A program made the position numbers and the translations under genes. A stretch of 64,000 bases of DNA from Terriglobia bacterium. GTDB taxonomy: Bacteria; Acidobacteriota; Terriglobia; Acidiferrales; UBA7541. The notes under the pieces were generated by a model, which was not told the origin of the DNA, did not search any database, and saw only the letters and a program-made list of their open reading frames with translations. Position 1 is the stretch's first letter, and every line of letters starts with the position of its first letter. The DNA is taken from NCBI GenBank assembly GCA_020073485.1, contig JAIQFB010000007.1:1-64000 (forward strand). The letters run 5' to 3'. Below, in pieces: positions 23,212 to 32,891 of this stretch.

Positions 23212-24336
23212 GTGAGCGATTGGCGACAAATTCAGGCCCGCATCCGCAAAGCTCGAACCAGCGCGGATCCTCCAGGTCAACTTGCTGCGTTATACGAACG
23301 CACGCGCGACGCCATGGTCGCGTTTGAACTGGCGCAAATTCATGAAAAGGCCGGCGTGATTTCCGACGCCGTGCGATGGTACACGGCCGCCGCCGAACGC
23401 TTCCGCCGCGCTCAATGGAAGCAAAAGGCCGAGGAAGCCCTCACCCGTTTGGGTGCGCCCATCCCGGCCGCTCTTCCCGCTACAACAGCCGCGATTTCCG
23501 AAAGTGAAACGCCGGCTGACTCCGCGGCTCATACGGAGCCCATCATCGCGGAATTTTCTGGAGACCAAGTGACCGAAGAAGGTGACGAAATCGACGGAGG
23601 CCAGCAGGAATCCGTTTTCGAACAGCCCGCGGCAGCCGCTGCCGCATCGCCACAAGTCGCACCGGGCGAACCCGGACGCCGCCGCAAGCGCCGCGGCCGC
23701 CGTGGCGGCCGTGGCCGCAACAAAGGCGCGCGCGCGGGCGGCGCAAACGCCGCAACGCCAGCTCCGCTCCCTCAACCCGTTCCACCCTCCGCGTTTGACC
23801 GCGCCGCCGAACCCCGCTCGTTCCCGGCCGCGCGCGTCCATGCGCCCGAGGAATTTTCCCGGCCGCGCGCGCAGGAAACCGAATCGCTTCGCGCCGCCGA
23901 GCCCGCCGTGCCGGCTTCCGCGTTTCAAGTGCGCGCGCGTTCCGGCGACCCGGCGCTCTCTTCGCGCATGGTCCAGCTGGAATCGCAATTGCGCCGCATG
24001 CTCGCGTGCGCCGTGCATTCGGTCGATCTGGCCGACGAGGCCCCCGCGGGCCCCGGCGTTTTCCTGATCACCGATACCGACCAGACCACCTATTACTATG
24101 TCGAGGCCTGCCAGACGCTGCGCGTCGGGATCGGCAACTTGCTGCGCAGCGGGCGCGGCAGCCGCGAAGGCGCCGACCTGAAAGGCAAGCTCGCCGACCA
24201 TCTGGGCATCAACGAAGCGCGCGTGGGAAAATATCTGAAGGATCACTGCGTGGTCCGCTGGCTGCAACTCGACGAAGGCGCTCCGCTGCTTGCACATTTT
24301 TCCGTCGCTGTCCTTCGCCCCATCGCCAACGAATAA
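23212..24336 (+). CDS. Basic, partly disordered protein of unknown function with a GIY-YIG-like C-terminus
   Basis: A 374-residue protein with a GTG start, divergent from queG. The N-terminus (about 1-85) is helical and TPR-like (AALYERTRDAMVAFELAQIHEKAGVISDAVRWYTAAAERF). Residues about 90-245 are Ala/Pro/Glu-rich and disordered, with a highly basic patch GRRRKRRGRRGGRGRNKGAR at about 155-175 that should bind nucleic acid. The C-terminal ~100 residues (FLITDTDQTTYYYVEACQTL to the end) carry LLRSGRG, LKGKLADHLGI, KYLKDHCVVRWLQLDEG and a final L..F...VLRPI. The order of these is reminiscent of GIY-YIG domains, but the key GIY/YIG tyrosines are not clear. Function is unknown. Confidence 0.6.
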   Translation: MSDWRQIQARIRKARTSADPPGQLAALYERTRDAMVAFELAQIHEKAGVISDAVRWYTAAAERFRRAQWKQKAEEALTRLGAPIPAALPATTAAISESETPADSAAHTEPIIAEFSGDQVTEEGDEIDGGQQESVFEQPAAAAAASPQVAPGEPGRRRKRRGRRGGRGRNKGARAGGANAATPAPLPQPVPPSAFDRAAEPRSFPAARVHAPEEFSRPRAQETESLRAAEPAVPASAFQVRARSGDPALSSRMVQLESQLRRMLACAVHSVDLADEAPAGPGVFLITDTDQTTYYYVEACQTLRVGIGNLLRSGRGSREGADLKGKLADHLGINEARVGKYLKDHCVVRWLQLDEGAPLLAHFSVAVLRPIANE

Positions 24337-30001: not shown

Positions 30002-30396
30002 AGGGAACGTTCCGGCTTGCGGAAATATGGCCGAAAATGGCCCTCATATGCGCAAAATTTTGCAGAAAAAATTCGCCGGCCGCCGGAGCACAGTGATCGC
30101 CAAGCCTCTCTAAGAGAACCGAATACGGGCAACTGCCGGGTGCCGCCCCATTGGGTGCGGCAAATCGCCGTTTAGCCCTTGATTCGGCCCTTTGGGCGCA
30201 ACTCAGTAGACGCTGGCGGGAGGTAACGGGCAAACTACACAGGTGGAAAGCTTTAGCTGGACCGCAAGGGGCCATTTTAGTTAGGCTATGCAGGATTCAG
30301 GTTTTTTAGGATCAGGGGCCGTATTCATCTTCGGGGGCTCCCACTTAGTTTTGTGGTTTGAATTTATTTGAATCGTATTCTGGAGGTTTTTGAGAC
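30002..30396. other. Long leader of the radical SAM gene
   Basis: No ORF with family features. The stretch 30140-30200 contains imperfect GC-rich inverted repeats (GCCGCCCC...GGGTGCGGC; GGCCC...GGGC). The part 30215-30290 has GGGCAAAC and CCGCAA words but does not fold into a riboswitch I can name. A T-rich run with TTTTTT precedes AGGATCAGGG. GGAGG lies at the proper distance before the start codon at 30397. Confidence 0.35.
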
Positions 30397-32559
30397 ATGC
30401 CTCAAACTTTGGGGACACGTGCATGGAAAGCGCTGGATTATGTCGTGTGCAAGACCGCAGGCGTGGCCTTTGACACGATCCATTTTTTTAACAAGCACAA
30501 TCCCAATCCGAATTTCACGCCCAAGTGGTCCGATAAGCCGCTGCTGAAGTCGTGGGAAAAATCCAAGCCCACGCTCGGCTGGCCGCGGCAAACCGACTCG
30601 CTGTGCCCGGGCTGCGTAAAAGAAGCGCGCGACGCCATCTTTGAAGGGAAGAAAGACTGGCGCGACCTGATGCACGAAAAGGTCGGGGAGATCAAGGCGC
30701 AGATCATCGAGCGCGACGGCCAGATCTGGATGGTCAAGGAATGCCCGATTCACGGCCACTACGAAGACATGATGGCCATCGACGCCAAATTCCTGAATTG
30801 GATCGAGCAGAATTTTCCGGGCCGCGACATTCCCGCGCATAACGACGAAGACTTGCACAAGCACGGCTCCAGCACCGTCCGCTATGGCCGCGGCTCCGTG
30901 CTCACCGTGGACCTCACCAACCGCTGCAACATGATGTGCGATCCGTGCTTCATGGACGCCAACCAGGTCGGTTACGTGCATGAACTTTCCTGGGAAGAGA
31001 TTCAGGAAATTCTGGACAACGCGCTGAAGATCAAGCCGCGCCGGCAGATGTCCGTGCAGTTCTCGGGCGGCGAGCCGACCATGCACCCGCGATTCTTCGA
31101 CGCCATCCGCCACGCGCGCAAGATCGGCTACAACAGCGTGCAGGCCGCGACCAACGGCATCGAGTTCGCCAAGAGCAAGGAATATTGCAAGCAGGCATTC
31201 GAGGCCGGGCTGCGTTACGTGTACCTGCAATTCGACGGCATCGGCAACGACGCGAACAGCCACCGCCAGGTGGGCAACCTGTTCGACGTGAAACTGCGCG
31301 CCATCGAAAACATCCACGCGGCGGGCATCGAAATCATTCTGGTCACGACCATCGTCAACAATTTGAACAACGACCAGGTGGGCGCCATCGTGAAATTCGC
31401 GATGGACAACCCCAAGAAGATCTCCTTCGTCGCATTCCAGCCCGTATCATTCACTGGGAGGGACGAGGAGATCACTCCCGAGCGCCGCATGAAACAGCGC
31501 TATACGCTTTCGCACCTCGCCAAGGACGTCAGCGCGCAGGTGGGCAAAATCGAACCGACGCGCGACTGGTTCCCGATTTCGCTGATCAGCACGTTTTCCG
31601 CATTCGCCGATCTCTCTCACGGGCCGGACGCGCCGTGGGGCTCCGTGAGCTGCGGCTGCCACCCGAACTGCGGTGTGGGCACCGGCGTACTGATCAATAA
31701 AGAAACGAAGGAATGGGCTCCCGTCCCGGCGTTCCTGAATGTTCCTCAGTTGGTTGAGGACATCAAGAAGGTCACGGACGCCGCCCGCGGCAAGACTTTT
31801 TCCAACCTCACGTTCGGGCTCGCCATGCTCAAGAATTACAACCCGTATGGCGCACCCGGAACGTTCCGCCTGCTCGACTTGTGGAAGAAAATGGACAAGT
31901 CCTGGGGGCTGACGAAGAACCAGCGCGAGAAATACGGTACCGCAGGTCCGGAGCGCACCTACGAAGACGCCATGAAGCGCCGCAATACCGATCCGTGGAA
32001 CTTCCTGATGATCGCCGGAATGTGGTTCCAGGACCTGTTCAACTATGACTTCCGCCGCACCGAAATGTGCATCATCCCGTACGCGACGCAGCAGGGCGAA
32101 ATTTCCTTCTGCGCTTACAATACGGGCATCGGCTGGCGCAAGATTATCGAGAACATGTACAAGAACGCGACGGTCGCCCAGTGGTACAAGGAACACGGCA
32201 AGCACGAGATTTACGCCAAGGGCAAGGCCGTGAACCTGGACACCTACAATCACTCGCTGGTGATCGACGCCGAGGATGCCGCGCGCGTCCGCGCGGTCGA
32301 CCACGAAGTGCCGAACACCGCCGCCGAAGAGAACCGGGCACGACGCCGCGCCGAATTCCTCAAGGAAGAAGCGCGGGTCCGCAAGATTTACGAGGAACTC
32401 GTGCTGAAGAAGGCGCCGCAGGAAGTGGTGCAGATCGGTTCGGTCAGCGACATCAAGAAGGCCACTCCGTCGGTCGCTCCGGTGACCATCAGCAACGCCA
32501 CCGGAAACGGCAATGGCGCGTCGAAGCCCCAGGTCGCCGAGCCGGTTGCAGGCGACTAG
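30397..32559 (+). CDS. Radical SAM protein, Tes/Mss-like (tetraether or membrane-spanning lipid synthase family)
   Basis: A 720-residue radical SAM enzyme, much larger than a lone radical SAM domain. The N-terminus has LCPGC at about 69-73 and KECPIHGHYED at about 113-123, a rubredoxin-like metal site. The radical SAM cluster is in LTNRCNMMCDPCFMDA (CxxxCxxC), followed by QFSGGEPTMHPRFF, the SAM-binding GGEP. Further on lie LRYVYLQFDGI and a C-terminal SCGCHPNCGVGTGVLI that can hold an extra cluster. This order is that of the archaeal MJ0619/Tes family, which joins lipid chains, and of the bacterial Mss proteins. The RGCPYDC-type linker of Tes is missing. GGAGG precedes the ATG. An Ala/Glu/Asn-rich tail ends the protein. 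Confidence 0.8.
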   Translation: MPQTLGTRAWKALDYVVCKTAGVAFDTIHFFNKHNPNPNFTPKWSDKPLLKSWEKSKPTLGWPRQTDSLCPGCVKEARDAIFEGKKDWRDLMHEKVGEIKAQIIERDGQIWMVKECPIHGHYEDMMAIDAKFLNWIEQNFPGRDIPAHNDEDLHKHGSSTVRYGRGSVLTVDLTNRCNMMCDPCFMDANQVGYVHELSWEEIQEILDNALKIKPRRQMSVQFSGGEPTMHPRFFDAIRHARKIGYNSVQAATNGIEFAKSKEYCKQAFEAGLRYVYLQFDGIGNDANSHRQVGNLFDVKLRAIENIHAAGIEIILVTTIVNNLNNDQVGAIVKFAMDNPKKISFVAFQPVSFTGRDEEITPERRMKQRYTLSHLAKDVSAQVGKIEPTRDWFPISLISTFSAFADLSHGPDAPWGSVSCGCHPNCGVGTGVLINKETKEWAPVPAFLNVPQLVEDIKKVTDAARGKTFSNLTFGLAMLKNYNPYGAPGTFRLLDLWKKMDKSWGLTKNQREKYGTAGPERTYEDAMKRRNTDPWNFLMIAGMWFQDLFNYDFRRTEMCIIPYATQQGEISFCAYNTGIGWRKIIENMYKNATVAQWYKEHGKHEIYAKGKAVNLDTYNHSLVIDAEDAARVRAVDHEVPNTAAEENRARRRAEFLKEEARVRKIYEELVLKKAPQEVVQIGSVSDIKKATPSVAPVTISNATGNGNGASKPQVAEPVAGD

Positions 32560-32663: not shown

Positions 32664-32891
32664 ATGCCCATTTACGAATACGTTTGCGACGCCTGCAAGG
32701 CGCGCTATGAATCCATCGTGATGTCGGTGAAGCAGAAAGTTTCGTGTCCTCATTGCGCGAGCGAGCGGCGGACGTTGCAGCTTTCCGTGTTTAGCGCGGG
32801 GAAATCCTCGAACGGTTCTTCCCCGGCGAGCGGGCCGTCGGCCTCCGGCGGGGGTTGCGGGTGCACGCCGCATTCCTGCGGGTGCCATTAG
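32664..32891 (+). CDS. FmdB-family zinc-ribbon protein
   Basis: A 75-residue protein beginning MPIYEYVCDACKARYESIV, with the second knuckle CPHCASERRTLQLSVFSAGKSS, the normal FmdB regulatory-type zinc ribbon. A Ser/Gly linker leads to a Cys/His cluster (GGGCGCTPHSCGCH) at the C-terminus that could bind another metal. The ATG follows AAAGGGAAAAGAAAA. A terminator lies between it and the radical SAM gene, so it probably has its own promoter. Confidence 0.88.
   Translation: MPIYEYVCDACKARYESIVMSVKQKVSCPHCASERRTLQLSVFSAGKSSNGSSPASGPSASGGGCGCTPHSCGCH

Follow-up and report, generated by a model that had tools for sequence, protein, structure and literature searches.

The object of this study is a gene for a radical S-adenosylmethionine (SAM) protein found in a 64,000-nucleotide stretch of DNA (positions 1 to 64,000 of contig JAIQFB010000007.1, assembly GCA_020073485.1; hereafter the window) from a Terriglobia bacterium of the phylum Acidobacteriota. 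The open reading frame at positions 30397-32559 of the forward strand is intact from ATG to stop and encodes 720 amino acids, exactly as claimed in an earlier note made from the sequence; its product is designated here P0001. Sequence, predicted fold and metal ligands agree in assigning P0001 to the Tes (GDGT-MAS/MJ0619) superfamily and, within it, to an acidobacterial clade without the surface [4Fe-4S] cluster of the N-terminal part ([4Fe-4S]N), so that the MJ0619-type architecture proposed earlier stands. By analogy with MJ0619, from which its activity, substrate and product are inferred, P0001 is probably the enzyme with which Acidobacteria make iso-diabolic acid by joining the ends of two iso-C15 tails.

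Pfam search registered in P0001 the Radical_SAM domain (E 6.8e-21) and Zn_ribbon_HMPTM (PF23545, the N-terminal zinc ribbon of MJ0619 type; E 1.7e-13, 50.3 bits against a cut-off of 27), but no SPASM domain at E up to 1. The top NCBIfam model was Tes (NF045702; 323.5 bits, E 2.1e-96), aligned over profile positions 1-484 of 486, and the second one was TrsS (NF045646; 223.1 bits, under its 490-bit cut-off). Three plasmid-borne TrsS-like proteins used as a control showed the opposite order of scores (TrsS 352.5, 335.5 and 188.8 bits; Tes 303.4, 324.2 and 137.2 bits, respectively), and their match to the Tes model ended near profile position 320 of 486, i.e. covered its first two thirds. In the sequence search of PDB the first hit of P0001 was 7TOL, the tetraether/macrocyclic archaeol synthase of M. 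jannaschii (E 7.6e-61), followed by MoaA with 4.7e-07. P0001 is present as a single copy in its genome, where two further matches were weak and confined to the radical SAM core, and near-full-length relatives with approximately 61-92% identity were found across Acidobacteriota.

The same assignment follows from the predicted structure. After hits below 190 bits, open frames shorter than 500 aa, duplicates and copies from the window itself had been removed, 130 relatives remained, and the window protein together with 70 of them served as input for AlphaFold2. The resulting model had a mean predicted local distance difference test score (pLDDT) of 88.9 and a predicted template modelling score (pTM) of 0.87. 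Foldseek placed the two MJ0619 structures first (7TOM, E 4.3e-35; 7TOL, 1.7e-34) and MoaA third (1.8e-08). Superposition on Tes, recommended earlier as a check, was performed with VIA-align and gave Z 43.3 with a root-mean-square deviation of 2.7 over 482 residues (model residues 61-603; 482 of the 498 residues of 7TOM), which is far above the runner-up protein MoaA (Z 20.4), with the radical SAM core in common; absence of a family from the VIA-align list does not exclude it.

Four metal sites are described for MJ0619, namely the rubredoxin iron, the N-terminal auxiliary [4Fe-4S], the radical SAM cluster and the C-terminal auxiliary [4Fe-4S] (PMC9433317). According to the same source, the rubredoxin iron is held by C9, C12, C33 and H36, the N-terminal cluster by C73, C77, C80 and a histidine, while the C-terminal cluster has a labile ligand, Met439, and takes up the radical of the substrate by forming a C-S bond with it. 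We compared these positions in an alignment of P0001, MJ0619 and 129 acidobacterial relatives (a B-type fragment of 428 aa, L156, was further dropped), which were divided by their identity to P0001 into 103 sequences of A type (at least 62%), 14 of B type (48-59%) and 12 of Tes type (27-36%), with class cuts at 62% and 45%. The rubredoxin cysteines are retained in all 103 A-type rows and H119 in 102 of them (one H119C), so that the N-terminal CxxC...CxxH pattern noticed earlier is present as C70xxC73...C116xxH119. The radical SAM motif C177xxxC181xxC184 within LTNRCNMMCDPCF and the GGEPTMHP segment were also read correctly. In the C-terminal part C338, C455 and C470 of MJ0619 align with C425, C558 and C572 of P0001; these cysteines are taken as putative ligands of the C-terminal cluster because they are conserved; the geometry of this site, named earlier as a refuting check, was compared through alignment and fold superposition. 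On the whole, ligands of the rubredoxin, radical SAM and C-terminal sites, as well as M542 and Y562, are unchanged in all three classes with two exceptions, both in A type: the H119C replacement and one undetermined residue at C572. Reported contacts of 5'-deoxyadenosine (5'-dAH), F106, Q268 and S271, likewise occur unchanged in every A and B row.

The string SCGCHPNCG, taken earlier for an MJ0619-like C-terminal cysteine cluster, is real (residues 418-426), but only its C425 has a cysteine counterpart (C338) in MJ0619, and M542, C558 and C572 were missing from the earlier list. C419 is found in 103/103 A, 14/14 B and 3/12 Tes-type sequences, and C421 in 103/103, 13/14 and 7/12, respectively; together with C425 they share the CxCHPxC motif of A and B rows. 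A different picture was observed at the site of [4Fe-4S]N. None of the 117 A and B rows has a cysteine at any of the three positions; that of C80 is occupied by serine (alanine in one B row) and that of H83 mostly by arginine or lysine, whereas all 12 Tes-type rows hold all three cysteines and the histidine, too. The Tes linker RGCPYDC, reported earlier as absent from P0001, is thus lacking together with the counterparts of C73, C77 and C80.

The main tree contained 53 rows without an outgroup (26 of A type, i.e. the window protein and 25 of the 103; 14 of B type; 12 of Tes type; MJ0619), and three plasmid-borne outgroup rows were added in a quicker second tree. In the main tree a branch of 2.0 changes per column (support 100/100) stands between P0001 with 39 other A and B rows on one side and MJ0619 with the 12 Tes-type rows on the other, and the outgroup tree concurs (support 100, stem 2.01). 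The idea of a distinct subgroup marked by the missing CPYDC linker therefore holds, since this clade is the one without the N-terminal auxiliary cluster. Neither A nor B is monophyletic: most B rows lie below A, and L132 and L133 stand beside A-type L131. B-type paralogues (L155 and L142, for instance) resemble P0001 in being devoid of the N cluster and belong to the same clade. If the tree is rooted with the outgroup, the A/B clade emerges among Tes-type rows, beside L145, L147 and L148 (Shimodaira-Hasegawa-like approximate likelihood ratio test 99), and the N cluster would have been lost once, on the A/B stem; this root is unsure because the outgroup rows are very long. Placement in a different radical SAM family was not observed in the tree with Tes. 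By the tests run, the clade of P0001 looks like a long offshoot of Tes that has parted with the N cluster, a defining feature of Tes.

Tes-type genes proper are a second gene in some Acidobacteria, sharing with P0001 the phylum and the superfamily but separated from it by the branch described above. Two of their products scored 586.8 (L158) and 619.1 bits (L153) with the NCBI Tes model, above its 450-bit cut-off, and one acidobacterial Tes-type protein matched 7TOL with E 1.1e-138. Genome G057 holds A, B and Tes types, while in G037 an A-type and a Tes-type match lie about 0.95 kb apart and are divergently transcribed. Thus, P0001 has in common with MJ0619 the rubredoxin domain, the radical SAM core, the positions of the C-terminal cluster with its labile methionine, the counterpart of Tyr459 and the fold; it differs in the loss of the N-terminal auxiliary cluster, the added C419 and C421, an extra N-terminal helix and a 117-residue C-terminal tail.

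Iso-diabolic acid (iso-DA), probably formed by two iso-C15 tails joined end to end, accounts for 20-40% of fatty acids in 17 cultures of acidobacterial subdivisions (SDs) 1 and 3 and is found in SDs 1, 3, 4 and 6, and the branched glycerol dialkyl glycerol tetraether (brGDGT) of Edaphobacter aggregans consists of two ether-bound iso-diabolic chains (PMC13274423). Iso tails and isoprenoid (phytanyl) tails have like ends (PMC8941075), and the MJ0619 reaction carried out on iso-C15 lipids would therefore give iso-diabolic acid. By the mechanism of MJ0619, SAM would be cleaved at the radical SAM cluster (C177/C181/C184) to the 5'-deoxyadenosyl radical, and this would abstract hydrogen from a membrane lipid, at the end carbon of an iso-branched acyl tail (iso-C15). 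The C-terminal [4Fe-4S] (C425/C558/C572, with M542 displaceable) would then hold the resulting carbon radical through a C-S bond until a second SAM activates the tail of the second lipid and the tails join into a membrane-spanning 13,16-dimethyl-octacosanedioyl (iso-diabolic) lipid; the ester-to-ether step would be left to other enzymes. Lipid coupling, suggested from the beginning as the likely chemistry, is thus upheld as a prediction from homology with MJ0619. In a published search for Tes homologues E. aggregans gave one (32%, E 4e-61), and identities of 42% and 40% were given for Koribacter and Solibacter (PMC8941075). The first value seems to fit A type and the two others Tes type, with the reservation that query and database differ from ours; as the E. 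aggregans value is closer to that of A type (7.6e-61) than of Tes type (1.1e-138), an A-type protein would be the sole candidate from the Tes superfamily in this brGDGT producer.

Occurrence of the gene was estimated in two samples. In a kinship-graded set of 61 genomes (own, genus, family, order and class) the gene or a piece of it was found in 57, including 17 of 18 genomes of the same class. In a phylum sample of 396 genomes, where scoring covered the top two candidates from a first look at each genome and the threshold was 1e-40, 203 genomes gave a match, among them all 52 genomes of the same class that were seen (the window's own included), and no same-class genome was present among the 20 non-matching ones listed in order of kinship (173 more were non-matching). 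The best E value was at most 8.9e-115 in 183 of the 203, i.e. A or B by E value, and 20 had a match of Tes-type strength only. Within one family (f11, 48 genomes) 44 had one match and four had two, two being the maximum that could be scored. Among the best 80 of 586 loci kept from the scan of named genomes, titles were acidobacterial except for one "Betaproteobacteria" bin (L031, 76% identity), which is probably mis-named; since only these 80 were kept, other phyla are possible as hosts. Searches of plasmids gave TrsS-like, MoaA, NirJ and other radical SAM genes, and viral contigs gave three weak loci. Loci with a P0001-type gene include Terriglobia, Acidiferrales, Solibacteraceae, Blastocatellia and Pyrinomonadaceae, which presumably overlap SDs 1, 3, 4 and 6 with reported iso-DA. 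Of the 396 phylum genomes 86 gave a match to DUF2229 (Ger/PlsA-like), the candidate for ether formation, and for same-class genomes the figure was 10 of 52; the presumed coupling gene is much commoner.

Several observations weigh against the assignment of P0001 to iso-diabolic-acid synthases and should be considered together. Its Tes score of 323.5 bits is below the NCBI cut-off of 450 and is not distinctive by itself, as two plasmid-borne TrsS-like proteins reach 324.2 and 303.4 bits. R210, a contact of 5'-dAH in MJ0619, is replaced by Q, H or K in A type, and N108 by D. The long stem leaves room for a change of function, and the loss of [4Fe-4S]N could accompany another activity; coupling itself is predicted from homology, fold and conservation of ligands. 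At most a radical SAM core match was found in G027 (80% complete), G028 (59%), G029 (86%) and the same-class G051 (94%), and the fit of gene distribution to iso-DA production relies on literature at the level of subdivisions. According to PMC10087280, Solibacter usitatus has brGDGTs and two Tes homologues with no detectable iso-DA, and as a P0001-type gene is present at a Solibacteraceae locus (L057), the gene is no guarantee of iso-DA accumulation. Finally, when neighbouring genes were clustered over 81 loci (window included) with a crude greedy gene caller, no conserved neighbour with an obvious lipid role was recognized by eye among the 25 commonest clusters.

Part of these data would suit a tail coupler of the Tes superfamily having another main product, i.e. 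an enzyme that joins ether-bound tails directly to brGDGTs, acts within one lipid or attacks other carbons. MJ0619 itself yields macrocyclic archaeol as well as GDGT (PMC9433317), Solibacter, with two homologues in its genome, has brGDGTs but no detectable iso-DA (PMC10087280), and Tes-type genes co-occur with the P0001 type in G037 and G057. We nevertheless consider this alternative unlikely. The gene is present in all 52 same-class genomes and DUF2229 in only 10 of them, so that ester lipids look like the usual substrate (ether routes through elb were not searched).

Even lower is the probability that P0001 belongs to Mss, the diabolic-acid synthase family of Thermotoga and Clostridia, to which the earlier note had also related it. 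Mss couples fatty-acyl chains tail to tail (PMC13274423, PMC11604127), as is predicted for P0001, and modelled Mss is said to retain the catalytic architecture of Tes (PMC13274423). Kinship with Mss was nonetheless not confirmed by an indirect comparison: of 14 control genomes three archaeal ones (M. jannaschii, S. acidocaldarius and M. acetivorans) had a PF23545 match, and T. maritima, the source of the mss gene expressed by others, was one of the 11 that had none, though a diverged domain could escape detection. Function of this mss had been confirmed earlier in E. coli, and no membrane-spanning lipids were seen in the mss plus ger strain, as described in PMC11604127. Furthermore, Mss is reported together with Ger from 561 Lachnospiraceae and 304 Clostridiaceae species (PMC13274423), whereas the best 80 of 586 loci from the genome scan bear acidobacterial titles except for the dubious one; a survey of 97 acidobacterial metagenome-assembled genomes tallies Tes and Mss separately, 17 and 11 (PMC11868695). 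Least probable of all is a Tes paralogue repurposed for another hydrophobic or peptide substrate, or for methylation as in the old pterin annotation of MJ0619: the 2.0-change stem, the loss of [4Fe-4S]N, the new C419 and C421, the 117-residue tail past the Tes core and the adjacency of related TrsS-like genes to methyltransferase genes speak for it. Against it, M542, Y562 and the rest of the catalytic set are conserved, the superposition extends over 482 of the 498 residues in 7TOM, and according to PMC9433317 the pterin methylase activity could not be corroborated.

Bacterial Tes homologues were already proposed as makers of brGDGTs (Zeng 2022, PMC8941075), and what is new here is the split between the A/B and Tes clades, the loss of the N cluster and the distribution. 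Our literature search, mostly without subscription papers, found neither an assay of an acidobacterial family member nor a description of N-cluster loss; Sahonero-Canavesi 2022 (Sci. Adv.) may treat the gene. It is quite possible, though not yet to be assumed, that Acidobacteria make membrane-spanning iso-diabolic lipids by means of a naturally cluster-deleted Tes. With the Tes of archaea and the Mss of Thermotoga there would then be three kinds of enzymes that couple lipid tails. In this case [4Fe-4S]N would be dispensable for sp3-sp3 coupling, bacterial membrane-spanning lipids would have arisen from more than one radical SAM lineage, and the role of the added C419 and C421 would be to adjust or protect, in aerobic cells, the cluster that donates sulfur. 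brGDGTs and iso-diabolic lipids are the basis of widely used soil and lake temperature proxies, with Acidobacteria as their best-known producers. If P0001 is the coupling enzyme, its family would mark the producers and the missing N cluster would show which of the four metal sites of Tes are needed. The split between Tes-type and cluster-less proteins also means that two enzymes may be lumped together in surveys relying on one BLAST cut-off.

Table 1. Features of the P0001 gene (window coordinates) and of the radical SAM/SPASM genes found near its relatives (locus coordinates)
Feature	Coordinates	Strand	Basis or remark
Ribosome-binding site GGAGG	30382..30386	+	Sequence reading; ATG ten bases downstream
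P0001, Tes-like radical SAM protein without N-terminal auxiliary cluster	30397..32559	+	Proposed iso-diabolic-acid / membrane-spanning-lipid synthase
Extra N-terminal helix (residues 5-32) without counterpart in MJ0619	30409..30492	+	AlphaFold2; pLDDT 74 (residues 1-10), 93-97 (11-40)
Rubredoxin-like domain	30583..30777	+	PF23545; C70, C73, C116, H119 correspond to MJ0619 C9, C12, C33, H36
Linker replacing the Tes [4Fe-4S]N site	30829..30891	+	MJ0619 C73 is a gap, C77 is H156, C80 is S159, H83 is R162
Radical SAM motif C177-x3-C181-x2-C184	30925..30948	+	Invariant in 71 aligned sequences
C419-G-C421-H422-P-N-C425	31651..31671	+	C425, conserved cysteine of the C-terminal cluster; C419 and C421, clade-typical additions
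M542, counterpart of labile ligand Met439	32020..32022	+	103/103 A, 14/14 B, 12/12 Tes type
C558 ... Y562 ... C572, remaining C-terminal cluster cysteines and Tyr459 counterpart (Y562)	32068..32112	+	Alignment
C-terminal extension past the Tes core, residues 604-720	32206..32556	+	7TOM alignment stops at 603
Radical SAM/SPASM genes	L169:4286-5863; L170:3069-4634; L171:2515-4155; L172:3719-5287; L173:2975-4552	-	

Of the two terminal additions, the N-terminal helix is weakly amphipathic. Its hydrophobic moment is 0.37 (0.39 on average in 102 A-type proteins, against a mean of 0.23 over all 18-residue windows of P0001), and its best 18-residue window, 0.433, corresponds to the 95th percentile of the whole protein. 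With amphipathicity this weak, membrane anchoring is a guess and membrane contact a possibility. At the opposite end residues 691-720 have pLDDT below 50.

The commonest neighbour of P0001-type genes lies within 10 kb in 33 of the 81 loci, upstream on the same strand in 31 of 32 at a median distance of 343 bases. Its homologue in the window (23212-24336, forward strand, 374 aa) is found approximately 6 kb upstream, contains a stretch rich in R and G and has no Pfam match. A gene for an IscA-type protein of Fe-S biosynthesis or carriage (PF01521; 7698-8024 in L062) is located within 3 kb of the P0001-type gene at six loci. Directly in the window P0001 is followed by a short frame for an FmdB-like zinc ribbon (32664-32891, forward strand; PF09723) with the cysteine-rich tail CGCTPHSCGCH, and a similar gene follows in seven of 81 loci.

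In five of six genomes from other families of the same order (G037 and G039-G042) a radical SAM/SPASM gene, with a product of about 547 aa, stands by the P0001-type gene. In the sister family (G039-G042) it is directly downstream on the same strand, approximately 25-145 bases separating the two matches. In G037 it is located beyond the adjacent Tes-type gene. It is absent from the 3.5 kb that could be seen near the gene fragment of G038, and the window's genome is without an orthologue. Identity of the five proteins to that of G037 is 76-78% over 522-526 residues. The protein remains under every NCBIfam cut-off among the matches listed, the best being AhbD (heme b synthase) with 248.8 of 500 bits. 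Its layout, a 130-residue N-terminal extension followed by radical SAM and SPASM domains, recalls the description of archaeal Gms, the glycerol monoalkyl glycerol tetraether (GMGT) synthase (PMC11186832). Like P0001, Gms is a radical SAM protein, and it forms C-C bonds between lipid chains, but it belongs to the SPASM-domain enzymes and has two auxiliary clusters ligated by cysteines alone (PMC11186832), while P0001 has no SPASM match. By this likeness in description the radical SAM/SPASM protein may be regarded as a candidate for the formation of branched GMGTs.

In plasmid-borne relatives from Halorarius and Mycolicibacterium (L160:1474-3637 and L161:1423-3791) a TrsS-like radical SAM gene, scoring under the TrsS cut-off, is paired with a methyltransferase gene that follows it immediately. 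Two DUF2229 matches were obtained in the window's genome, and one of them belongs to a 1080-aa BcrAD_BadFG/DUF2229 PlsA-like protein followed by a 474-aa partner (G000:C26:26500-34000; L167:1023-5620). This pair is a candidate for the enzyme converting ester to ether in membrane lipids, and its layout resembles the two-gene plsA-plsR operon of clostridia.

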